A stretch of DNA of 25,497 nt, taken from IMG/VR virus record IMGVR_UViG_3300032011_000116, positions 1-25,497 of that record, one strand, 5' to 3'. The position numbers were made by a program, and so were the translations under genes. The DNA is from a virus. The notes below the pieces were generated by a model. That model was not told where the DNA came from and did not search any database. It saw only the letters and a list, made by a program, of their open reading frames with translations. Positions within the stretch are counted from its first letter, which is position 1; each line of letters opens with the position of its first letter. This document shows positions 1 through 13,014 of this stretch, piece after piece.

Positions 1-372
1 ATTACAGATGGAAGATATAGAGGTTATAGAAGAATGGTATTAAGTTGGGGCAAACTTAAATATCATTCAAAGCAACTAGTAGTATCAAAACTTACACAAG
101 AAATAAGAAGGTTAGGTCGTGGAAGTGAACTTATGAGTCCTATGACAAGCATGAATAAAGACCGAGGTTTAAGAGTGTCTTCAGATTACAAAGAACCTAG
201 AACAAGTTTAACAAGAAGAGTAGCAGGAACGGCCGCTGGAGCAGTCGTAGGAAGATATGCAGGCAAAAAAATTGCACAAAAGACTGGTGCTAATGTTGAT
301 AAATATAAGAAAGTAGGAACAGGACTAGGTGCAGTTGCAGGTTATTGGGCAAGTGGAAGAAAGAAACAATGA
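1..372 (+). CDS. Basic glycine-zipper-like protein, 5' partial
   Basis: The reading frame is open from the first base, so the start lies outside the window; the first in-window ATG is at 34. The visible part is rich in Arg and Lys. Its last third (from about base 210) is a small-residue segment with GTAAGAVVG and GTGLGAVAGY stretches separated by a charged piece, like a glycine zipper or a pair of membrane-active helices. It ends in a basic tail. The stop overlaps the next start as ATGA (369-372), so the two genes are translationally coupled. I do not recognise the family. A virion-internal or membrane-interacting role is a guess from composition and context. Confidence 0.7.
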   Translation: MTDGRYRGYRRMVLSWGKLKYHSKQLVVSKLTQEIRRLGRGSELMSPMTSMNKDRGLRVSSDYKEPRTSLTRRVAGTAAGAVVGRYAGKKIAQKTGANVDKYKKVGTGLGAVAGYWASGRKKQ

Positions 373-998
373 AAATAAATGAAATACAATCAGATCAAGT
401 AAAAAGTGATGCCGCTAAAGTGGTTGACTTAGTGAGATCTGGACAAGATATTAACCTAGCAGTTGATACATATAAAAATATTCATTCTGGTAAACTAGAT
501 TATGATGCCGCTTTTTCCGCCGCTAGAACCCAAAGCGATGCTGAACAAGGCAGAACGTCGCAACAACGTCAAGACATGGAAGCAAGAGCAAAAGCACAGA
601 AAAAACTAGACGACAAAATAAGAAACAATAAAGCATTAGCAAAAGATAAAGCACAAAGACTTAAAAACAAAGGAACATTTAAAAAAGATGATGATGCTTC
701 AAGAAAACAAAAAGCACAAGGAAGTGATTACACAATCGATCCTGAAACAGGGCAAATGTTTGCAAAAAAAGGTGCAAAAGGAACTTTCTATGGTAACCAA
801 TCAACAGGAAGTTTAGGCTTAGGCAAAGGCAGGCAATCAGTTAAAAAATATCTAGATGATCCGTCATTATTATTAAGCCTTGGAGCAGATGATTTTGATG
901 ATGCTATAAGCAGAGGCTCTGATATTGGCTCAAAGATATTTAAACCTAAAGGAAGTGGCGGAAAAGTAATTCCAAAATACTCTATACGTGATAATTAA
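369..998 (+). CDS. Lys/Gln-rich basic protein, putative internal virion protein
   Basis: 209 residues from the ATG at 369. A TTG start at 345 is also in frame, but the ATG makes a classic ATGA overlap with the upstream stop and yields the N-terminus MKINEI, which matches other genes here (9777, 12190, 13644). The middle is a long charged, probably helical stretch full of Lys, Asp, Gln and Ala. The C-terminal part is Gly/Ser-rich and basic. No enzymatic motif is visible. The MK-hydrophobic-x-E-hydrophobic start resembles T4 capsid-targeting sequences, so packaging in the head is possible. Function is unknown; that it is a real gene is supported by coupling and composition. Confidence 0.7.
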   Translation: MKINEIQSDQVKSDAAKVVDLVRSGQDINLAVDTYKNIHSGKLDYDAAFSAARTQSDAEQGRTSQQRQDMEARAKAQKKLDDKIRNNKALAKDKAQRLKNKGTFKKDDDASRKQKAQGSDYTIDPETGQMFAKKGAKGTFYGNQSTGSLGLGKGRQSVKKYLDDPSLLLSLGADDFDDAISRGSDIGSKIFKPKGSGGKVIPKYSIRDN

Positions 999-2751: not shown

Positions 2752-2991
2752 ATGCCAAGAAAATCAGAGCCAGAACAAGAATTAAAACCTTACGTAGAAA
2801 AGGGCAATATAGAAGCACATATTATTGCAGATATGTTGAGGATAGAAAGCATTACTGCAGAATTACGAGAGTTCAAAGAAACAACAAAAAGCAGATTAGA
2901 CAAATTAGAAAGTTGGATAATTGCTATTGTTGGGTTGACATTTACATCTCTGATTAGTATAATAATAGGTATAGTAATTAATTTAATATGA
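2752..2991 (+). CDS. Small coiled-coil protein with C-terminal membrane helix
   Basis: 79 residues. Residues about 25-55 are a charged helix with heptad-like hydrophobics (IADMLRIESITAELREF). Residues about 56-79 form one strongly hydrophobic helix ending the protein. The layout (coiled coil, then one C-terminal transmembrane helix) resembles XhlA-type haemolysin/holin-associated proteins and some lysis accessories. That resemblance is structural only, so a lysis or membrane role is tentative. A consensus sigma70-type promoter lies inside its last codons. The stop overlaps the next start by 4 bases. Confidence 0.65.
   Translation: MPRKSEPEQELKPYVEKGNIEAHIIADMLRIESITAELREFKETTKSRLDKLESWIIAIVGLTFTSLISIIIGIVINLI
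2935..2963 (+). promoter_or_regulatory. Perfect consensus sigma70 promoter inside a gene
   Basis: TTGACA (2935-2940), a 17-base spacer, TATAAT (2958-2963). Both hexamers and the spacing are the exact sigma70 consensus. It lies within the membrane-helix codons of the 2752 gene. The predicted start near 2970 gives a leader of about 18 bases before the ATG at 2988. It would give host-polymerase (early) transcription of the basic protein and possibly the giant gene behind it. Confidence 0.7.
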
Positions 2992-3272
2992 TATTAGAAG
3001 ATATAACACAAGACTTAGTTGTTGAAAACAGAATGGTCTGGCGCAAGATGGGGAACAAAGTAGTTCGTGCTGTCAGGTGCACATCTGGTCACAGGAAAGG
3101 TCGTGTTGTTTCTAAATCACAACAATGTAGTGCGCCAATCAATATGAAAAAACGCATGACAATCAAAAAGACTAAAGCAAAAATGGGTGCAAGGATCTCA
3201 AGAAAATCACAAAGAACAAAAAGAATGAATCCTGCAAGTAGAAGAGTAAGAGCATTAAACAAGAGAAGATAA
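2988..3272 (+). CDS. Very basic small protein with RCTSG-RKGRVVS motif
   Basis: 94 residues, extremely rich in Lys and Arg. The N-terminal third is less charged. A core around residues 30-40 reads VRCTSGHRKGRVVS, followed by a second Cys (SQQC) and a long basic tail ending PASRRVRALNKRR. Similar RCT-G-RKGR-VS proteins with basic tails are, to my memory, common in environmental T4-like phages without a known function. Nucleic-acid binding is likely from composition. The start overlaps the previous stop; no good ribosome site is visible, so coupling is probable. The stop abuts the next ATG. Confidence 0.72.
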   Translation: MILEDITQDLVVENRMVWRKMGNKVVRAVRCTSGHRKGRVVSKSQQCSAPINMKKRMTIKKTKAKMGARISRKSQRTKRMNPASRRVRALNKRR

Positions 3273-6200
3273 ATGAAATTTACTGAAGTAAAAACATTAG
3301 AACATTTATTAAAAGAATATGCTACACCAGTAGGACAACAAACCACTGGTAATACTGGTATAGGTTCAGTTGCTAAAAAAATGGCTGGACAAGCCGGTAA
3401 ATCTTTAAGTAAAAAAGTAGGCGGTAGTGTTGGTTCTGCAACTAGCATGGCTGGACAAGCCATTAAAGGTGCTGACAGTAAAACTACTCAAAGGTTAAAA
3501 AGTATAGCATCACCCAAGACCAGCAAAGCAAAAATAACATTAAGTCCAACAATAAATGGCGAAAGAAATATAGCCGAGCCAGTAGTAAAAACAAAAGCAG
3601 GAAAAGTAGAAAAAGGTGCAGATATATACGACCAATATGGTAACTATGCAGGTAAAGTTGATTCACCATTAGGTGATAATTCTGCAGGTGCTGGAGCAGA
3701 TGCAGTAGCAATCTTAAACAAGAACAATAAGTATGAAGTTAAAACAGGCGACGATGAAGTGTTTGTGCAAAATCCAGAAGCCAAAGAAGTCGATGAAGGG
3801 AAACTCAGCAAGATAGCAAATCGCAGAGGTAAAAAGAGAAAGATTAAAAAATTAAAACGCATACTTAAAAAAATAAATAGAAAAAGTTTAAAAGAAGCAG
3901 ATCCAAAACTTTTTGAAATAAACTTCAACAGACAAAGTGTAGCCAAAGAGGCTTTAGATGCTCCAGTAAGATGTGGATTTGAAGCCGAAACATTTTTCTA
4001 TAATGCTGATAGCAGAACTGCTAGTGACGATGTAGACAACATGAGTATCAGTGATGTTGAATACGAATTTGGTGACTTACCAGATAGTGCATATGAATAC
4101 TATCAAGACTGGCTTCGTGAAAAAGCAATGGACGAGTATTTGCCTGATCTTATAGATAATTGGATAGAAGAAAATCGTGACGAAGATGAATACATTCAAG
4201 ACTTTATGGATTCTGGTAATGGTCCCACAGAAGATGCTGTCGAAGAATACAAAGAAAATTATAAAGAAGATAACCCTAACGAATACGAAAATCGTGAAGA
4301 AGATGGTTGGGAGTTGGATAACTGGGCCAGAGACTTTATCAACGAAGAGTATGAAGATGAATACGAAGACTTCCTAAGAGATATAGCAAACGATGAAGAC
4401 CATCTGGTTGATGATGCTGTAGAAGAAGCCGAAGGCGATTATTCTATGGACGAGTATGTAAGCGATCAATATTATAGTATGAGTGAATTCTTAGATGACT
4501 TCAGTTATGACTACTCTAGAGAAAACGCCGGTGTCGACCAAGTAGCAGATATTTTACATAATTGGATCAACAAAAGCAGTGAATTCAAAGACTATCCAGA
4601 AGTAGGTGATTACGGAGATACTTATACAACAAGTGCTTATTCAGTAGAGCCTGACAGCAGTATAGAAGCAGACGAGGGTGCAGGGGCTGAAATTATATCT
4701 CCAGTATTTAGTAGTCCTAGACAGATGCTTAGAGAAATGAAAAGTTTATTTGAATGGGGAGAAGATCAGTTCGGCACTAATAACTCAACAGGCTTACATG
4801 TTACTATGAGTTGGCAAGCGGAAAAGAAAGATCCAAACAAATTAAAAATGGCATTGCTATTAGGTGATCCATACTTACTAGCAGAATTTGGAAGACTTAA
4901 AAATACTTATACTAAAAGTCAATATAATAGTTTACTAAAATACGCAAGTGACATACAAAAGGGTCAAGATAACAATCTAAAAGCATTAGAAAACCAATTA
5001 TCAAAAGGTATAGATAGTGGTAAATTTAATAGCATACATTTTAAAGACGAAAGAGATGATTCGACAGGCAATAAACTAATAGAATTTAGAATTGCTGGTG
5101 GCTCAGATTACAGTCTAATGTATAACGAGATTGTAAAAGCAGTTGTGCGATATGCTACTGTAATGAAAGCAGGATATGATGATGAGGCTTACAAAAAAGA
5201 TTATATCAATGCTTTATACAGAATACTTAACAAATCCCAAGAACCATCAGAAAGAGATATAGATAGATTAGCAAAAATTGACCATCCAGTAATTACTTCT
5301 GCTAAAGAAATTGTAAGCAAAAAAGAATACTTCGACGTTCTTAATAAATTAGAAATGAGTGTAACATATTTTGACACATATAAAAAACTGATACAACCTG
5401 ATGCTGACAAAAAATGGAAACAGAGTATAAAAGATTATCAAAAAGGAACTGGCAGAGATCCAAGTTGGATGGGCGAAAGCATCAACGAAGACGAAATTAC
5501 AGGTTATGTAGAACCAGATAGAGTAATGCCAAGCAAGATGGCTCCTTTAAAGTTAAAGCAGGCACAAGAAGCCTTTGGTCAAGCAGTAGCAATGTTGGCA
5601 AAACAACTTGCACAAAAAACAGCAAGAGCAACACCTAGGTCAGTAAATATAGGTCACTTTAGAAAGTATGCTGGAGAGTTAAAACTAGACCAAAAAGATT
5701 TAGAAAAACTTTTAGTTCAAAGCATAGACGATGCAAATTATGATAATTTAGAAAACGATAAAGAAAAACATAATGTTTTACAGCAAGGTATAGCAAAACT
5801 ATTTAAGAAAGATATTATAGGTAAGGCTGAATTTTTTGACAGTCAAGAATTTGATATTATTGCCGATGGCTTATGGCAATACTTTCAAAATGAGGACGCA
5901 AAAGACAATTTAGTATTAGATAAACTTGCAGAATTATTTGTAAATGTTAATCCGAGAAACGAAAAAGATAAAGTTAGAGATGAATTAATCGACCTCAGCA
6001 AAAAAAGACAAAAAAATGAAATGTATAGATATTTGTCTAATAACCATAGTAATCATGTAAGGGGTTCACTCCTAGCATCAGATATGCTTAGTAGTAGAAA
6101 AGCAATTGAAGAACTTAAAGCATTCTTAGAAAAATATTCAGGTTACGAACACCCCGTAAGTAGAGATCATCATATTAACATTAGAAGTGATGATAATTAC

Positions 6201-9200
6201 GGTAATGTATATCAAATGAATATGATTCAAAAAATGAGACAGAGGATAAGAATTCTAAACAGTATGCAGAAAACTGACCAAACAAAATATGAAAGCATTA
6301 AAAAACAGTTAATAAAACTTGGTCTAAACTATTTAGAAGAATTGAAACCATATGATCCACCGCCAGAACCTTACTCATGGGATGATACCAACGGAAGTGA
6401 TATGATGAGTTTTCGAAATATGGAACATTGGAATAACACTATGGACTCCATTGTTAAATTAGGCGATGACGATGATACCACTTATAACTTTAGTGGTCGA
6501 TATGATGATATTGTGTTTAGTTGTATTTGGTTATCAGAATATTATGAAAGAGTTCAAAATTATGGTGCACCTAAAGATAAATTTTTAAGATCGCTTATTA
6601 AAAATAGATTTAAAGCAATCAAAGAATTCTTATCTGGATTTGATAAAATTTTCCAAGCAGAGGGATTTGCAAATTTAGAAAAAGAAATTGCTGGTAAAAA
6701 TCAGTTAGACAAACGTAATAAAGATTTTGAAAAAAATGTTAGAGATAAATCTTTAGCAGAAATAAATATTCCTGCTCATAGTTTTGTGTATATTGAATGG
6801 AGTCTTCAAGGCAATTTACAAGATGTAGATTTAGATGAAGAAGATAATGAAATGAATGATTGGTTCAAGCGAACTGTAGTAAAAGAATTACAAAACAGTT
6901 GGTCGCATCAAGACGGAGGAAACAGGTTAATATATGTCATTCCAGGGGCGCATTGGGAACAAGCCAAAGATGCAAATGAAGGATTAGAAATAATAGATAG
7001 AGAATCAAAAGAGGATAATTTTTACCATAATTGGCGCAAAAGAGGTTATCAAAAAATATTGCAAAAGTTTACAAGAACGTATAATACCAAATTTAGTAGA
7101 CTTACAGACGAAGACGAAGGTGAGTATAAACTCGCTGATAGAAATTTTTACAAGGAACTAAATAGGTTAAATGTTGAGGTAACTAGAAAAGGTGATAGTA
7201 GAAGAGGTGCTCCTGGACAAAGTGATTTAATAAAACCTGAAGAATTAGAAAATCCAAAAAGCGGAGAACCTATTAATAGAAGTTCTGCAATGATGTGGGA
7301 GCAGTCTACAGAAGATGCTGAGCAAAAACGTTTTGATGCTTTTGATTGGAGCAGTTATCCGGAAGAATTTAAAGAAGCAGTTGCTGAAATGATGAAGAAT
7401 CATACTCAAACACACGGTAATTTTAGAGTAGCAATGAGTGACGTGATAGATAAAATTAACCAAAAAGAAGTTAATATACCTTTGAAAAAACAAAACAATA
7501 TACAAGGTATGATAAATGCGGCTGGTGTAGAAGACATGGATGGTGACAGTTCAAACGGTATAGCAAGTAAAACAAATTGGAGTAACTTAGCAGACTACTT
7601 AGGAATAGAACGTGGTGTTAATGACCAAGGTCCTAACTTACTTAAAAAAGTTTATGATCAATACGACGGCAACCACGAATGGCGACCAGAACCTGACCCA
7701 GATGCATGTTGTATGCCAAGATGGTCCTCCGCAGTTAAGGCCGCATATGAATATATCAAAACAAATTATAATGTAAGTGCTGGAAACTATTTTAGAAAAG
7801 ATGCAGACGGTAACGACGGTGATAATGTAAGTAGTGTGCATAGCACGCCGGACCAACAAGTGAACACAGATTACGACAAAGCCAGAGAAGACCATCCAGG
7901 GTTTAATACAATGATGCAAAATGGTATGCAGAATTACTTAGTGCGTGGCCAAGTAAATGACCTAGTAGGATTTTTAAACAATCCAAGCAATGATAATGTT
8001 TTCAAATCGGCGGTTTTAAATACTTTAGCAAATCGATTTGAGGTCAATCCTGGAAATCCTTTTAATAGTTTCCAAGATGCATTAGCAGTTACTCGTAGAC
8101 ACGGTTATGAAAGTGTATTTGATAAATTTGAGAAACTTCCGTTAGAAGAACAACTTATTAAATTACAAAAAATAGACAGTAAAAAAATAGACAAAGTATT
8201 AGAGGGCGGTGTTAAACAGTTGGCTTATGATAAAGAATGGGATAGAATGCATTCTAGAGACAATGTTCAAGTGTCAAGACCTAATCCTATGAAAGTTGTT
8301 AAACCTTACAATCCAGCACAACATAAAGAAGCAATGATCAAAAACAAAATGGATAGTCAGAAGATAACAAGACAACAAGCAGAAGCACAGATAGCCGCAA
8401 TGTTACGAAAGCCTGAAAATCAAGATTATTTTACAGCAAATGCAGATAAGAAAAGACAAGATAAGAAAAATAACGTTACAGAGAGTGTGCCAAATAATAC
8501 AAAAGTAAGAATGATTAATAAAATATTATCAGATCATTTTCCAGCAAGTGATTTGAAAAAACAAATGGATGCCTACTTTGCTATACCTGACCCACAAATG
8601 TTAAAAGACTTCAGGAAAAGACGTGCAGAAGCAGGAGATGATGTATGTTTAAGACCTATATTAAGGAACTATATACAAATGAAATTACATCCTAAACTAC
8701 ACTCAGCAATAAACTTAAACGAAAGCAAAGACGATTTAATTGCAAAAATTGATGCATTACCTGATGATGAAGGCACAAAAAAATTAGTTAATTACATAGA
8801 ACAATTAATTGACGATATGGGTGTAGGCGGAAAAATACAAAGTTTAAGTAATGAATTAGAAGTTATAGATGATATAGATGTTAAAAAGGCTATTAATCAA
8901 ATTGCAAAAATTATAGCAAGTATTGAGATGAGTCCTCAAGAAAGAGCACAATTATTTGTAGATTGGAAAGCAGACAAATTAGTAAATGTTGACGCATTAC
9001 TATCTACTTCAACAGTAAGTTTAGAAACTATTTTTAAAGGTTACGGAGAAAAAGGCGAAAGCCACGTAACTGAGTTAGTAGATGATTTAAATCAAGTAGT
9101 GCAGTATGGTATAGGCCCAGGTGAATTTGCATTATCAGTATTGTCACAGAGAATAGAAGGTATAGGTGCATCGTCTGGTGCTGATGATGATGGGCCAGAG

Positions 9201-9776
9201 GGCAAAGGTGACTTATTAATTGACGGCAAGCCAATAGAATTGAAAACTACAAGAAAAAATTCTGCAAGATTTAATGACAGACAAGTTACTGCATCTGATT
9301 CATATAAAAGTTTAGTAACAGCATTTTTTAATAAGTATGATGCAAAGTTTAAAGAACTTGAAGAACAAGGATTACAAGTTAGAGTGAAATCAGGTATGCA
9401 ACAAAATCATGTCATGGCGTTTTTAAAAGAAGTTCCAGAAGCAGAAAAAGAGGTTGCTAATATTATCTCAAATATATTTACAGCATTAAATGTAAGCGGT
9501 GGCCCGATTGCAAGATACTTGGCACAAGGTGATAAAAATCAAGCCATGCAATTAATAGCACAGTCAAATGTAAATAACTACCTTGCACAAAAAAGACAAA
9601 GCGGTAACTTACTTGGAATACTTTTCTTAGATCTTAACAAACAAGCATTTACTTTTATTAAAGAAGTTTCAGATCTAGAAGGCACAGGTTTAAGATTACA
9701 TGCAAAAACAAATTATTTAATTACAACAGTAGAAAACCCATTTGCCAATACGTCAATTGTGGATACAGGAGCATAA
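3273..9776 (+). CDS. Giant multidomain protein: amidoligase-like and PD-(D/E)XK nuclease-like domains
   Basis: 2167 residues, ribosome site AGAGAAG (3262-3268). Residues 1-70 are Gly/Ala/Lys-rich with a repeated MAGQA motif. Residues about 180-208 are very basic and end in LKE before A209. Residues about 230-640 match the amidoligase_2 pattern (ATP-dependent, glutamine-synthetase-like fold): CGFEAE (234-239), EIISP (473-477), TGLHV (506-510) and IEFRIAGG (603-610); a very acidic Tyr-rich insert separates the first two. The long middle is unrecognised, with a CC pair near DACCMPRW. The end is PD-(D/E)XK-like: GPGE (1948-1951), then D1980, E1989 and K1991 in GKGDL...IELK. Such amidoligases join amines or amino acids to carboxylates; the substrate here is unknown. 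Candidate processing sites (hydrophobic-x-E) fall near 208, 739, 1737 and 1817. Probably a head-packaged polyprotein; that is an inference. Confidence 0.8.
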   Translation: MKFTEVKTLEHLLKEYATPVGQQTTGNTGIGSVAKKMAGQAGKSLSKKVGGSVGSATSMAGQAIKGADSKTTQRLKSIASPKTSKAKITLSPTINGERNIAEPVVKTKAGKVEKGADIYDQYGNYAGKVDSPLGDNSAGAGADAVAILNKNNKYEVKTGDDEVFVQNPEAKEVDEGKLSKIANRRGKKRKIKKLKRILKKINRKSLKEADPKLFEINFNRQSVAKEALDAPVRCGFEAETFFYNADSRTASDDVDNMSISDVEYEFGDLPDSAYEYYQDWLREKAMDEYLPDLIDNWIEENRDEDEYIQDFMDSGNGPTEDAVEEYKENYKEDNPNEYENREEDGWELDNWARDFINEEYEDEYEDFLRDIANDEDHLVDDAVEEAEGDYSMDEYVSDQYYSMSEFLDDFSYDYSRENAGVDQVADILHNWINKSSEFKDYPEVGDYGDTYTTSAYSVEPDSSIEADEGAGAEIISPVFSSPRQMLREMKSLFEWGEDQFGTNNSTGLHVTMSWQAEKKDPNKLKMALLLGDPYLLAEFGRLKNTYTKSQYNSLLKYASDIQKGQDNNLKALENQLSKGIDSGKFNSIHFKDERDDSTGNKLIEFRIAGGSDYSLMYNEIVKAVVRYATVMKAGYDDEAYKKDYINALYRILNKSQEPSERDIDRLAKIDHPVITSAKEIVSKKEYFDVLNKLEMSVTYFDTYKKLIQPDADKKWKQSIKDYQKGTGRDPSWMGESINEDEITGYVEPDRVMPSKMAPLKLKQAQEAFGQAVAMLAKQLAQKTARATPRSVNIGHFRKYAGELKLDQKDLEKLLVQSIDDANYDNLENDKEKHNVLQQGIAKLFKKDIIGKAEFFDSQEFDIIADGLWQYFQNEDAKDNLVLDKLAELFVNVNPRNEKDKVRDELIDLSKKRQKNEMYRYLSNNHSNHVRGSLLASDMLSSRKAIEELKAFLEKYSGYEHPVSRDHHINIRSDDNYGNVYQMNMIQKMRQRIRILNSMQKTDQTKYESIKKQLIKLGLNYLEELKPYDPPPEPYSWDDTNGSDMMSFRNMEHWNNTMDSIVKLGDDDDTTYNFSGRYDDIVFSCIWLSEYYERVQNYGAPKDKFLRSLIKNRFKAIKEFLSGFDKIFQAEGFANLEKEIAGKNQLDKRNKDFEKNVRDKSLAEINIPAHSFVYIEWSLQGNLQDVDLDEEDNEMNDWFKRTVVKELQNSWSHQDGGNRLIYVIPGAHWEQAKDANEGLEIIDRESKEDNFYHNWRKRGYQKILQKFTRTYNTKFSRLTDEDEGEYKLADRNFYKELNRLNVEVTRKGDSRRGAPGQSDLIKPEELENPKSGEPINRSSAMMWEQSTEDAEQKRFDAFDWSSYPEEFKEAVAEMMKNHTQTHGNFRVAMSDVIDKINQKEVNIPLKKQNNIQGMINAAGVEDMDGDSSNGIASKTNWSNLADYLGIERGVNDQGPNLLKKVYDQYDGNHEWRPEPDPDACCMPRWSSAVKAAYEYIKTNYNVSAGNYFRKDADGNDGDNVSSVHSTPDQQVNTDYDKAREDHPGFNTMMQNGMQNYLVRGQVNDLVGFLNNPSNDNVFKSAVLNTLANRFEVNPGNPFNSFQDALAVTRRHGYESVFDKFEKLPLEEQLIKLQKIDSKKIDKVLEGGVKQLAYDKEWDRMHSRDNVQVSRPNPMKVVKPYNPAQHKEAMIKNKMDSQKITRQQAEAQIAAMLRKPENQDYFTANADKKRQDKKNNVTESVPNNTKVRMINKILSDHFPASDLKKQMDAYFAIPDPQMLKDFRKRRAEAGDDVCLRPILRNYIQMKLHPKLHSAINLNESKDDLIAKIDALPDDEGTKKLVNYIEQLIDDMGVGGKIQSLSNELEVIDDIDVKKAINQIAKIIASIEMSPQERAQLFVDWKADKLVNVDALLSTSTVSLETIFKGYGEKGESHVTELVDDLNQVVQYGIGPGEFALSVLSQRIEGIGASSGADDDGPEGKGDLLIDGKPIELKTTRKNSARFNDRQVTASDSYKSLVTAFFNKYDAKFKELEEQGLQVRVKSGMQQNHVMAFLKEVPEAEKEVANIISNIFTALNVSGGPIARYLAQGDKNQAMQLIAQSNVNNYLAQKRQSGNLLGILFLDLNKQAFTFIKEVSDLEGTGLRLHAKTNYLITTVENPFANTSIVDTGA

Positions 9777-11867
9777 ATGAAAATAGATGATTTAATAACA
9801 GAAACCGGAATTGGTTATTCAGACGGATGGTCACAGTTTTCAAATGCTGGTCAAGAAGCATTTAAAAAAGATAATTTGCAAGGCCTATTTGATTGGGCAA
9901 AGACTATATTTCCTGAGTTCGCTGAATTTAGCAAAGAAGATTTCGAAGAAGATTTTAGAAACTATGTAAAAGACAATGACGGCGATGTCAACGAAGGACT
10001 AATAGCATGGTTAGATTTTTATTATGAAACATACTATATACAAAATAAAGATGCAGTAAAAAATCAAGCAATGCAGAAATTATCACTTCAAGCATCCGCG
10101 GGAGGCGGAGGTGCTGGTGGCGGTGGCGGTGCAGGTGGCGGTGCTGGAGCAGGTGGCTCTGGTGGTGCAGGTGCAGGTGCTAGTGCTGGTGGCGACGGTG
10201 GCTCAGCAAGTTCAAGTGGAGACGGAGGGTCTGCAGATAGTGGTGGTGCTAGTGATAGTTCCCCTTCCTCCGACTCTGCTCCTAGTGATGCTCCGGCTAT
10301 TAGAGGTGGTGGTTTTTATGGATTAGGCACTATGACAAGTCGCAAAAAGAAGAAAAAGAAAAAGAAAAAGAATTTTGTTTTTGGTGGTAGCATATACAAA
10401 GAAATGAATGAGATGGATTCTTGCCCAAGAACAAAATCAAAAGGATGCCAATGCGAATCATTACAGAAAATTACAGAAGCAGAGGAAACAGTTAAAGCAA
10501 TAGCAACACTAGAACACACAGAAGATGATGTAGCAGGTGTAATTAAATTTAAACAAAAACCAGGAAGGCCAACTATTATTAAAGGAATAGTAAAAGGTCT
10601 AACACCTGGTAAACACGGTTTTCATATACACGAGTTCGGCGATCTAAGTGATGGTTGTGCTAGTGCAGGTGGACATTATAATCCAGACGGTGTTGACCAT
10701 GGAAGTTTACAACAAGGACATGTAGGCGATTTAGGTAACGTAACAGCAGATCAATCAGGCACAGCAAGATTTCAAATTAAAGCAGAACGTGTAGAATTAT
10801 CTGATGTGGTAGGCAGAGCAATAGTAATACATGCTGATGAAGATGACTTAGGAAAAGGTGGCGACGACGAAAGTTTAAAAACAGGTAATGCTGGTGACAG
10901 ATTAGGTTGTGGTGTAATACGTTTACGAAAAGTAGTTGAAGAAACATTTGAAAGAAAATATTCTGATAAACATTTTGATAGAAATCAATTACCGCAAATT
11001 AGAAAACCAGATATAAGAAAGTCCCCATTTACTTTTAGAGAAGGTATAATGAATCCTTTCTTAATAAAACCAGTGCAAAGTCAACGTGTAGAAGGTTTGG
11101 CAGAATCGGCTGAAAAAGGTTACTTTGATGATGACTACAGGCCACTTATATTAGATAAAGACAATTATCTAGTAAACGGACATCACAGATTAGATGCCGC
11201 ACATATTTTAGGTTTAAGAGAAGTTAAAGTTGTTAAGGTAAATGCAACTATAGAAGAACTTATGAAACATTTTAAACACAAAATAAGTTATGATAAAGTA
11301 ATGGAAAACAAGATAAATATTAAAGACATGAAAGCAAAAGATTTATTATACTTAAAATTCAAAAAATCATTAGTTGAATCAAACATTCAAGAAAGAATGT
11401 TTGGTGTAAACGAATATGACATGCTGGATATGTTTATGAGTTCAGACAATGTAAACAAAGTTTTTGGTAGTGTAAAACGCGGAACACCAGATATGAAACA
11501 TGAAGGTGTAAGAAATCTAAAAATGTATCTTAAAAAAGCAGGTATATTTGATGACAACAGAGGCGGCGGTCTTGCTTATAAAAATATAGATTTTGGTCGC
11601 ATTAATACAGATCAAATAAGCAATGCTAAATTTGATAATCTTATGTTACATGCAAGAAAACTTGCTGATAATACAAATAATCTTACTGATGTTGCAGAAG
11701 AAATGAGGACTACTATACTTGATAATCCTGTTCCTTCACAAAATGACTTAACATATATTTCTAAAAAGCAAAAAGAATTTGTGGGACTTAAAGCACAACA
11801 AATACAAATGATTAAAAATATTAATAATCTTATTAAAAGTGTATTTGGTTTAGGAACAACTGCATGA
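9777..11867 (+). CDS. Cu/Zn superoxide dismutase-ParB-like fusion, putative internal virion protein
   Basis: 696 residues, AGGAG at 9767-9771, start directly after the previous TAA. The N-terminus MKIDDLITE is followed by an acidic aromatic domain (to about 100), a Gly/Ala/Ser low-complexity linker (about 106-172) and nine Lys (190-198). ITE234 before A235 is a T4 gp21-type site. Residues about 239-385 are a complete Cu/Zn SOD: H283 and H285 (HGFHIH), H300, H308, H315, D318, H352 for metals; C294 and C378 for the disulfide; R375 for substrate guidance. It would turn superoxide into oxygen and peroxide. Residues about 425-500 are ParB/sulfiredoxin-like with NGHHR (467-471). The last 190 residues are unrecognised. 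No signal peptide, unlike most bacterial Cu/Zn SODs. Domain calls are strong; packaging in the virion is an inference. Confidence 0.88.
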   Translation: MKIDDLITETGIGYSDGWSQFSNAGQEAFKKDNLQGLFDWAKTIFPEFAEFSKEDFEEDFRNYVKDNDGDVNEGLIAWLDFYYETYYIQNKDAVKNQAMQKLSLQASAGGGGAGGGGGAGGGAGAGGSGGAGAGASAGGDGGSASSSGDGGSADSGGASDSSPSSDSAPSDAPAIRGGGFYGLGTMTSRKKKKKKKKKNFVFGGSIYKEMNEMDSCPRTKSKGCQCESLQKITEAEETVKAIATLEHTEDDVAGVIKFKQKPGRPTIIKGIVKGLTPGKHGFHIHEFGDLSDGCASAGGHYNPDGVDHGSLQQGHVGDLGNVTADQSGTARFQIKAERVELSDVVGRAIVIHADEDDLGKGGDDESLKTGNAGDRLGCGVIRLRKVVEETFERKYSDKHFDRNQLPQIRKPDIRKSPFTFREGIMNPFLIKPVQSQRVEGLAESAEKGYFDDDYRPLILDKDNYLVNGHHRLDAAHILGLREVKVVKVNATIEELMKHFKHKISYDKVMENKINIKDMKAKDLLYLKFKKSLVESNIQERMFGVNEYDMLDMFMSSDNVNKVFGSVKRGTPDMKHEGVRNLKMYLKKAGIFDDNRGGGLAYKNIDFGRINTDQISNAKFDNLMLHARKLADNTNNLTDVAEEMRTTILDNPVPSQNDLTYISKKQKEFVGLKAQQIQMIKNINNLIKSVFGLGTTA
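10098..10290 (+). repeat. Gly/Ala/Ser low-complexity coding tract
   Basis: GGT/GGC/GCT/GCA-type codons repeat to encode a flexible linker in the SOD-ParB protein. The local GC content is far above the surroundings. A purine-only run encoding nine Lys follows (10344-10370). Both tracts are prone to length change. Confidence 0.8.
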
Positions 11868-12190
11868 GGCTACTTGAACTTAACAAACTAAATGAGAAAT
11901 TTACTCCTCAAATAGAAGGCTGGTATGATTCTGATGATATGTTGAGTTGGATAAATCAAAATTATAAACAAGAAGCGGCAAATGAATGGAATGAAATGGT
12001 GAACTTATTAGCAACATCATTAGAAGAAGTTCAGAGATCTGAATCAGCAATGAATACTTACAAAGCAGGTGATGTTAGTATCATGAATGACTTTGTTGAG
12101 GATTTGCCTTTTGATATAACTGATCTGCAATATTATAAAAATAAACCATACTTTAAAACAGTATCTTCAAGAACTATGGATAGAGAATAA
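11864..12190 (+). CDS. Small unknown protein with capsid-targeting-like start
   Basis: 108 residues. The ATG overlaps the SOD-gene stop as ATGA, and its own TAA shares a base with the next ATG, so it sits in a coupled operon. It begins MRLLELNKLNE, with a hydrophobic-x-E site at residue 11, like its neighbours. The rest is acidic and helical with several Trp and Tyr. No family or catalytic motif is recognised. The context suggests a virion-internal or assembly protein. Confidence 0.65.
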   Translation: MRLLELNKLNEKFTPQIEGWYDSDDMLSWINQNYKQEAANEWNEMVNLLATSLEEVQRSESAMNTYKAGDVSIMNDFVEDLPFDITDLQYYKNKPYFKTVSSRTMDRE

Positions 12191-13014
12191 TGAAACTATT
12201 CGAATTCTTTAACGAAGACAAGGACAATGTTACAACCTTAAAACCTCAAACAAAAGGCACAAAGTATCCTTTGTTTAGTAAACAGAACATTCAAAAAGCA
12301 TACAATGAATGGGCAAATGGCGCCGAGGTAGACAGAGATATTAACATAGTAGGCAAAGACAACAAAGAGTATGTAATACGCCAAAACTATGATGATGCCA
12401 GCCAACACTTTGAGGAAGGAGAGTGGTATCTCACTAATGCTAATAACGAGATTGTAGATACTGAAGGTTATCCGGACCCAGGAGAACTTTTATACGACCA
12501 TAATGCAGATGAAGAATTTTATCCAGATGATGACATAGAAGAAGGAACACGTTGTTGGAAAGGTTACAAGAAGAAAGGCACAAAGAAAATGTTTGGTAAA
12601 ACAGTTCCTAATTGTGTAAAGAATGAAATGTATAATCAAGACGATTTTGATGATGTATTTGGAGATAGGAAATACAAAAATGAATTTGCATACTTAGATG
12701 ATCTTAGAGATTCAGGTGCAACTAATATGTATGGTGCAAGTGCATATCTTGTTCGAGACTTAGGATTAGACAAAGCAGAAGCAGATAAAATTCTTATAAG
12801 GTGGATGAGATCAAAAAAAGATAAAGACGTAAGCGAAAATTTTGCAGACGGTAAAAAAAAGGGCAAAAGTAAGCCTGGTAGAGTAAAAAAAGCAGGAGCG
12901 AGTTGCAATGGCTCGGTAACAAGCCTGCGTAAAAAAGCAAAAAACAGCAGTGGTGAGAAGTCAAAAATGTATCATTGGTGTGCCAACATGAAGAGCGGTC
13001 GCAAGAAAAAGTAG
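12190..13014 (+). CDS. Protein with Cys-rich basic modules, putative virion protein
   Basis: 274 residues beginning MKLFEFFNE, again a capsid-targeting-like start. The N-terminal half is acidic. A module CWKGYKKKGTKKMFG with C122 and C142 (NCVKNE) is familiar from environmental T4-like phage proteins. The C-terminal 45 residues are very basic and carry C239, H262 and C264 (GASCNGSV...MYHWCANM), ending in KSGRKKK; this part resembles a tail module I associate with the DUF5872-type family, from memory only. The Cys/His spacing could bind a metal or nucleic acid. Function is unknown. It is the last gene of the coupled block. Confidence 0.72.
   Translation: MKLFEFFNEDKDNVTTLKPQTKGTKYPLFSKQNIQKAYNEWANGAEVDRDINIVGKDNKEYVIRQNYDDASQHFEEGEWYLTNANNEIVDTEGYPDPGELLYDHNADEEFYPDDDIEEGTRCWKGYKKKGTKKMFGKTVPNCVKNEMYNQDDFDDVFGDRKYKNEFAYLDDLRDSGATNMYGASAYLVRDLGLDKAEADKILIRWMRSKKDKDVSENFADGKKKGKSKPGRVKKAGASCNGSVTSLRKKAKNSSGEKSKMYHWCANMKSGRKKK

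Follow-up and report, generated by a model that had tools for sequence, protein, structure and literature searches.

A 2167-residue amidoligase and nuclease-like protein as probable processed head cargo of a large T4-related marine phage

Introduction

The propeptide motif of phage T4 and its role in targeting have been described (PMC9026906). In SPN3US, long propeptides are cut multiple times; the cuts that have been mapped take off N-terminal propeptides and, in the protease itself, one C-terminal propeptide (PMC10052503). Phage N4 packages its vRNAP, a large protein, uncut (PMC5512222); the main text of that paper does not contain the words amidoligase, glutamine synthetase or superoxide. 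For other phage amidoligases, a role in modifying the cell wall or metabolites has been suggested (PMC10580990).

The window analyzed here is a viral DNA stretch of 25,497 nucleotides (IMG/VR record IMGVR_UViG_3300032011_000116). The giant protein it encodes is proposed, with a probability of about 0.62, to be a head-packaged cargo of a large T4-related marine phage, processed by the prohead protease, possibly as a polyprotein, and injected at entry.

Results

The giant open reading frame

3273 to 9776, plus strand: open reading frame of the giant protein, 2167 aa (open frame, ATG start)

The frame runs without interruption from the ATG to its end. Full-length copies with 99.95% identity were found in two other IMG/VR metagenome contigs (L001 and L002), and it is therefore not an assembly artefact. 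Thirteen loci were recovered with the full protein as query and 155 relatives with the amidoligase domain, all in viral contigs; the family is common in marine ones, and its source is best read as a large marine virus infecting bacteria, a T4-related phage. Direct sequence searches of the giant protein against Pfam, PHROG and the PDB gave no meaningful match, nor did PDB profile searches using four of its domain alignments. An earlier note, made from the sequence, had reported a giant frame carrying both amidoligase and nuclease motifs; this observation is confirmed, and the quoted motifs are all present (CGFEAE at residue 234, AEIISP at 472, TGLHV at 506, IEFR at 603, GPGE at 1948, KGDL at 1978 and IELK at 1988). 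They are not due to chance, since the key residues are near-invariant across a 58-member amidoligase alignment and 48 nuclease domains.

Amidoligase domain

3918 to 5477, plus strand: amidoligase (glutamine synthetase-like) domain, residues 216-735 (PF12224 in relatives, AlphaFold model, conserved residues)
4005 to 4607, plus strand: acidic helical insertion within this domain, residues 245-445 (secondary structure of the model, charge count)

Based on sequence comparison and modelling, residues ~216-735 are an Amidoligase_2/glutamine synthetase-fold domain with invariant putative catalytic residues. PF12224 (Amidoligase_2) was found above its curated cut-off in five related records, among them G003, which carries a full-length homologue of 31% identity, and Agrobacterium phage Atu_ph07; the giant protein of the window did not itself reach the Pfam cut-off. 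With an AlphaFold model of residues 200-1200, the top 28 fold matches in the PDB were glutamine synthetases (best E 8.7e-3, probability 0.96), while the top BFVD matches were viral amidoligases, down to E 1e-15. The amidoligase call of the earlier note was thus right, and the glutamine synthetase-like fold it placed at residues 230-640 is clearly present. In the 58-member alignment Glu237/239 are fixed in 57/57 rows having a residue there, Glu459 is kept in 57 members, and Asp461, Glu473, His509, Lys525, Arg541, Glu604 and Arg606 are found in all 58. The ExE, E, E, H and ExR elements, which by analogy with glutamine synthetase we take to be metal and ATP ligands, are therefore kept in 57-58 of 58 members, and the domain would be expected to form amide bonds in an ATP-dependent manner. 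The insertion (~200 aa) contains 69 D/E versus 12 K/R. A scan of bacterial genomes using the amidoligase gave no relatives.

Middle region and C-terminal modules

5490 to 8192, plus strand: mostly helical, conserved middle, residues 740-1640 (models with pLDDT ~80-85)
8484 to 8723, plus strand: "adaptor" of 80 conserved residues ahead of the variable C-terminal module, residues 1738-1817 (conservation)
9081 to 9773, plus strand: PD-(D/E)XK-type nuclease core, residues 1937-2167 (conserved motif, element order of the model)

Residues 740-1640 matched neither families nor PDB entries; the ~1300 residues previously listed as unrecognised proved to be helical and without informative relatives in Pfam, PHROG or the PDB.

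Glu1951, Asp1980, Glu1989 and Lys1991 have equivalents in 48, 46, 48 and 48 of 48 nuclease domains, respectively, and the model displays a helix-strand-strand-strand-helix order, which fits a PD-(D/E)XK core. On this motif and the predicted secondary structure the assignment of the C-terminus to a PD-(D/E)XK-type core holds, as had been suggested. The nuclease fold looked for near residues 1940-2000 was found weakly: a fold search with the C-terminal half gave a single, non-significant match to the restriction enzyme 3ndh (E 5.3). No relatives of the nuclease segment were detected in cultured phages. A DUF6175 match at the C-terminus fell below its cut-off and was taken as chance.

The adaptor is the best-conserved part of the C-terminal region and is combined with several tail types. 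Among relatives the C-terminal modules are swapped after residue 1817, and three proteins (L101, L110 and L111) terminate at this junction. Pfam searches of the alternative tails and middles of relatives gave nothing informative. A segment of L101 and L110 matches PHROG 3560 (unknown function); its D..SxK motif also occurs in Synechococcus phage ACG-2014f.

N-terminal propeptide

3273 to 3317, plus strand: predicted capsid-targeting propeptide, residues 1-15, ending LKE15/Y, the slash marking the predicted cut here and below (homologue conservation)
3318 to 3896, plus strand: hypervariable linker, residues 16-208, ending LKE208/A (alignment, charge count)

The N-terminus reads MKFTEVKTLEHLLKE/Y and is patterned like the capsid-targeting propeptides of T4, with a gp21-type cut at (L/I)xE. 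The stretch that could serve as a candidate packaging tag is MKFTEVKTLEHLLKEY. The propeptide pattern was absent from the earlier note.

The site, with a hydrophobic P3, a free P2 and Glu at P1, is present in every 5'-complete homologue. Among 65 distinct propeptides, tallied with a pattern requiring Glu at P1, P3 is L/I in 63 and P2 is any of 12 different residues; Glu15 is conserved in 38/39 full-length members. In the alignment the first 16 residues are conserved and a hypervariable segment follows, and the phi-x-E site survives three-residue insertions ahead of it (LLKQLKE/Y in L125, LLKKLNE/Y in L110). The linker ends in a basic strip (residues 181-208, 15 K/R of 28), phi-x-E stands directly ahead of the amidoligase in 79/79 members, and the linker is probably a long propeptide. 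Genome-wide, N-terminal (L/I)xE was not enriched in a 250-kb relative (37/202, compared with 37-41/202 in later sequence windows). The presence of this short and common motif was accordingly rejected as evidence, and the case rests on the pattern of its conservation.

Internal junction sites

5481 to 5489, plus strand: possible cleavage site INE739/D in the disordered linker that follows the amidoligase (pLDDT <50 at 734-743)
8475 to 8483, plus strand: possible cleavage site VTE1737/S in a disordered linker (pLDDT <50 at 1731-1741)
8715 to 8723, plus strand: predicted cleavage site LNE1817/S, splitting off the C-terminal nuclease (conservation, linker with pLDDT <50)

At residue 1817 Glu is found in 36/38 members and P2 is variable (2.4 bits). 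The 39-member full-length alignment has only 10 columns with at least 90% Glu, five of them with L/I/V/M at P3; three of these five fall within the amidoligase domain or right at its start, and the remaining pair is Glu15 and Glu1817. The sites at 739 and 1737 are conserved less well, phi-x-E occurring near the 739 junction in 60/67 members and near 1737 in 48/62. Within the window protein alone, LxE is modestly enriched in disordered linkers (4 of 22, p 0.026).

A true capsid polyprotein is put forward tentatively, at somewhat under even odds. Conserved interdomain (L/I/V)xE cuts by the prohead protease would release the amidoligase, the helical middle and the nuclease as separate enzymes, so that in many marine T4-related phages one gene loads the head with several effectors at a fixed ratio, the C-terminal effector being exchanged at a conserved junction. 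Removal of the N-terminal propeptide only, with amidoligase, middle and nuclease injected whole as one polyvalent effector of ~1950 aa, would agree with the cuts mapped in SPN3US (PMC10052503), with the uncut N4 vRNAP (PMC5512222) and with sites 739 and 1737 not being universal. It is judged unlikely, however, since Glu1817 is conserved nearly as well as Glu15 despite its disordered linker and modules swap or stop exactly there.

Neighbouring genes

369 to 998, plus strand: upstream protein starting MKINE/ (propeptide-like starts in relatives)
2988 to 3272, plus strand: 94-aa basic protein with a propeptide-like start ending VVE/N (66 relatives, charge count)
9777 to 11867, plus strand: 696-aa protein starting MKIDDLITE/TG, with Cu/Zn superoxide dismutase (SOD) and ParB-like domains (Pfam, PHROG)
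11864 to 12190, plus strand: 108-aa protein with the propeptide-like start MRLLELNKLNE/KF (variants in relatives)
12190 to 13014, plus strand: 274-aa protein starting MKLFEFFNE/DK (C-terminus recurs fused to other proteins in the cluster)

Relatives of the first protein start, for example, with MKINDLIIE/V or MKINDFITE/V. The 94-aa protein (29 K/R, 4 D/E) is a probable internal head protein; in 66 distinct relatives, scored with a pattern requiring Glu, P3 is I/V/L, P2 is any of nine residues, P1 is Glu (66/66) and P1' is A/G/N/S/T. The 696-aa protein matches Pfam Sod_Cu (6.9e-44) and has ParB-like matches in PHROG. A second site, KITE234/AEE, immediately precedes its SOD domain, and an I/L-x-E junction followed by A/S was counted there in 29 relatives, again with Glu required. 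Site variants in relatives of the 108-aa protein are LNE, ISE and IDE. Neighbours are fused or split with their sites retained in L102/L103, where the ParB-like domain is fused, and in the 250-kb contig, where segments of the 696-aa and 274-aa types are joined in one 1414-aa protein. Further downstream come a gene of tail-fibre type, with an Mtd_N domain, and a PAAR gene.

These surroundings bear on two further explanations. An unpackaged enzyme, made after infection and acting, for example, on nucleotides, on the bases of DNA or on the cell wall, would accord with the roles proposed for other phage amidoligases (PMC10580990), its conserved N-terminus then having another role. It is improbable, given that no recognisable glutamine amidotransferase or comparable partner adjoins the giant gene, that the surrounding genes show the same propeptide pattern, and that the N-terminal phi-x-E is kept despite insertions and the hypervariable segment behind it. 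The earlier note's linkage to the virion is supported, though as head-internal cargo with a capsid-targeting-type propeptide. Its idea of a protein that modifies cell-wall peptides of the host during entry, here as part of the tail or baseplate, has the downstream Mtd_N and PAAR genes in its favour but is very improbable, as nothing found points to cell-wall peptides, no tail, lysozyme or other domain supporting such a role was found in the giant protein (Pfam, PHROG), its N-terminal pattern is of the head propeptide type, and it is hard to see what a nuclease would do in the periplasm.

Head protease and capsid protein

A Peptidase_S77 (gp21-type) prohead protease is encoded on the 250-kb contig of a relative, the window being a 25-kb fragment; it was seen in one of eight records, most of which are fragments. 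The same contig encodes a gp23-like (T4-type) capsid protein with LSE/A close to where the T4 protein is cleaved. Among standalone amidoligases, those of Salicola phage SCTP-2 begin RTIQE/G and NQINE/G; that of Atu_ph07 (AUZ94978.1) begins KKLTE/LKMN and is located two genes from the portal gene.

Discussion

Sequences and models show the amidoligase fold with its residues, the nuclease motif, the conservation of the propeptide and junction sites, the swapping of modules and, in one relative, genes for the protease and a T4-type capsid protein. Packaging, cleavage, injection and enzymatic activity are what we infer for the giant protein as processed head cargo. The first ~15 residues would act as a capsid-targeting sequence bringing it into the prohead core. 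A gp21-type prohead protease would then cut after (L/I/V)xE and remove the propeptide, probably the whole basic segment 1-208/215; the disordered junction before the nuclease would probably be cut after Glu1817, and perhaps other linkers as well. If internal cuts occur, one translation product would give two or more mature proteins. Like T4 Alt and the internal proteins, the mature pieces would be delivered together with the DNA, alongside the co-packaged SOD/ParB-like and basic proteins. In the host the amidoligase, using ATP, would couple an amine with a carboxylate on a host protein or metabolite, a virion target being less likely, and the nuclease would attack DNA of the host or of a competitor.

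If this is true, amide-bond formation and superoxide dismutation join the chemistries which phages bring ready-made into the host. A phi-x-E that is conserved while its middle residue varies freely would also provide a sequence rule for spotting head cargo in genomes of uncultured phages, among proteins now annotated as "hypothetical". Internal cleavage, if real, would represent a polyprotein strategy, for which no description was found for phage head effectors in the literature examined.

Comparison with known systems

The polyvalent proteins described by Iyer et al. (2017, PMC5512222) are large, multidomain and presumed to be co-injected with DNA, and carry hub domains (MPTase, ART, DdrB-ParB and others) within one polypeptide. 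The giant protein is likewise multidomain, with shuffled modules, but the ParB-like domain sits in a neighbouring protein, to which it is joined by fusion in L102/L103; processing of the giant protein, in contrast, would fall to the prohead protease. The ejection proteins of phiKZ and SPN3US, with propeptides of 100-250 aa and several x-x-E cuts, are likewise head cargo, a likeness of features; their cleavage motif is A/S-x-E, and in the passages considered release of a C-terminal enzyme is not described (PMC10052503). The Amidoligase_2 proteins of Atu_ph07 (A0A2L0UZM1) and SCTP-2 (gp124/125) have the same fold, conserved residues and phi-x-E propeptide-like start; they are 500-650 aa long and lack the middle and the nuclease, whereas the giant protein adds the acidic insertion, the helical middle and the nuclease. 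T4 itself offers a short N-terminal propeptide ending (L/I)xE in Alt and IPI-III, a T4-type protease and capsid protein, seen here in one relative, and, in the ADP-ribosyltransferase Alt, an enzyme as cargo. Compared with Alt and IPI-III, the giant protein is far larger, combines an amidoligase with a nuclease, and has added conserved sites at its domain junctions.

Proposed head targeting of the giant protein

We infer that the giant protein most likely reaches the prohead core by means of its N-terminus, undergoes processing by the prohead protease and is delivered along with the DNA. The features concerned are listed below (residue numbers are those of the giant protein; L-numbers denote other viral contigs carrying relatives; arrows mark predicted cleavage points).

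3273-9776, + strand: giant protein frame, ATG start, 2167 aa
Residues 245-445: acidic helical insertion in the amidoligase domain, 69 D/E versus 12 K/R
Residues 740-1640: helical middle of the giant protein
2988-3272: small basic protein directly upstream of the giant gene, 29 K/R of 94 residues
9777-11867: protein combining a Cu/Zn superoxide dismutase (SOD) domain (6.9e-44) with a ParB-like one, downstream of the giant gene

The virus record behind the window (25,497 bases) is a fragment. Near-identical copies of the giant protein (99.95% identity) were found on two further contigs and full-length homologues (30-52% identity) on others, and a scan with the domain alignment gave 155 viral-contig relatives of the amidoligase domain.

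Strong conservation over the first 16 residues of the homologues is followed by a hypervariable low-complexity stretch. The presence of an (L/I)xE motif is by itself uninformative, the evidence being its pattern of conservation: in a set of 65 distinct N-terminal peptides, position three ahead of the break was L/I in 63 and position two took twelve different identities, every 5'-complete member has the Glu, and the site survives insertions ahead of it (LLKQLKE↓Y, LLKKLNE↓Y). It matches the substrate pattern of the T4 protease gp21 (L/I-x-E); the T4 capsid-targeting sequence is an N-terminal peptide of ~10 residues (PMC9026906). The 250-kb contig of one relative encodes a Peptidase_S77 prohead protease and a gp23-like capsid protein, which carries LSE↓A near the point where its alignment with the mature T4 chain begins and is 64-69% identical to the capsid proteins of jumbo phages PA5oct and Phosso. 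A propeptide-like peptide of this kind also opens the amidoligases of Salicola phage SCTP-2 (two paralogues) and Agrobacterium phage Atu_ph07; in Atu_ph07 the amidoligase gene is two genes away from that for the portal and, judging from published gene numbers, within virion-protein cluster CDS 170-215 (PMC6102473). Since phage SPN3US has propeptides of 111-254 aa that are cut at multiple points (PMC10052503), residues 1-208/215 may be propeptide throughout.

Amidoligase and probable nuclease domains

The motifs on which the earlier note had based an amidoligase and a nuclease were all found, each where expected. The Pfam search gave no PF12224 match for the giant protein itself, probably because the insertion of ~200 residues splits the profile; five related records passed the cut-off. 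The AlphaFold model of residues 200-1200 had a mean pLDDT of 84.6, and its first 28 PDB fold matches were glutamine synthetases. Viral amidoligases, among them the Atu_ph07 and SCTP-2 proteins, were its top BFVD matches (E as low as 1e-15), and profile comparison with the proteins of these two phages gave 98% probability. Glu237, Glu239, Glu459, Glu473, His509, Glu604 and Arg606, invariant in 57-58 of 58 members, are putative ligands, which we take to correspond to the metal and substrate ligands of glutamine synthetase.

The assignment of residues 1937-2167 to a PD-(D/E)XK-like nuclease is good but not conclusive. E1951, E1989 and K1991 are present in 48/48 members and D1980 in 46/48, the modelled elements run helix-strand-strand-strand-helix, and the sole fold match, to the restriction enzyme 3ndh, was weak (E 5.3). 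Once delivered, the amidoligase would modify a protein or metabolite of the host, whose DNA, or that of a rival, the nuclease would attack.

Four relatives (L160, L146, L147, L148) share the predicted N-terminal propeptide, the adaptor (residues 1738-1817) and the nuclease; the amidoligase domain was not detected in them. An alternative region at L101:12243-13820 and L110:11742-13511 matches PHROG 3560, a family of unknown function also present in Synechococcus phage ACG-2014f, and has a nuclease-like D-x-K-V-D ... S-x-K motif.

Internal junctions

In the 39-member full-length alignment just ten columns were at least 90% Glu, five of them with L/I/V/M at P3: Glu15, Glu215 at the start of the amidoligase domain, Glu488 and Glu604 within it, and Glu1817. 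The last (LNE↓S, P2 free) lies in a linker of pLDDT<50 between the conserved 80-aa adaptor and the nuclease. The module that follows varies, being the nuclease in some proteins and a 450-aa type in others (L169, L068, L053, L152, L177, L158), and the L101, L110 and L111 proteins stop at this junction. Weaker sites, 739 and 1737, are likewise in disordered linkers. In L102/L103 the SOD/ParB unit is joined to the C-terminus, with hydrophobic-x-Glu sites at the joint, and the products of the genes at 9777 and 12190 are parts of one protein on the 250-kb contig; units bounded by such sites thus change places among genes.

Other candidate cargo

The 2988-3272 protein, a candidate DNA-condensing internal head protein, shows the same propeptide pattern, with Glu in 66/66 distinct relatives, a tally made from an anchor that imposed no Glu. 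Its conserved site is (I/V/L)xE↓A/G/N/S, and it adjoins the giant gene in many contigs. The SOD/ParB-like protein is probably further head cargo; it has a propeptide-like start and a second site, I/L-x-E↓A, directly ahead of the SOD domain. A DUF6267 protein (1.8e-105; L018:16530-17786, minus strand) may be cargo too, since its Pfam domain begins directly behind the propeptide-like sequence ILLE↓A (for the L030 relative, from about 1860, this reads IICE↓A). Its KWDG motif resembles ligase motif I.

Three small tandem proteins (1082-1426, 1906-2238, 2338-2742) are weakly related to each other (E about 1e-3). Two recurring modules (PHROG 727/4359), GTRCWKGY..KKMFGK..PNC and KSRPGRVK.AGASC.GSVTSLRKKAK...MYHWCANMKSGRK, occur at 12190-13014 and at many loci, with fusion partners that differ from contig to contig.

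Comparison with known systems

Among known kinds, the giant protein stands nearest to T4-type internal proteins and to polyvalent proteins; the paper on polyvalent proteins (PMC5512222) uses neither the word amidoligase nor the word superoxide in its main text. New here are an amidoligase, an SOD and a nuclease as putative cargo, the size of the protein, and the conserved junction sites.
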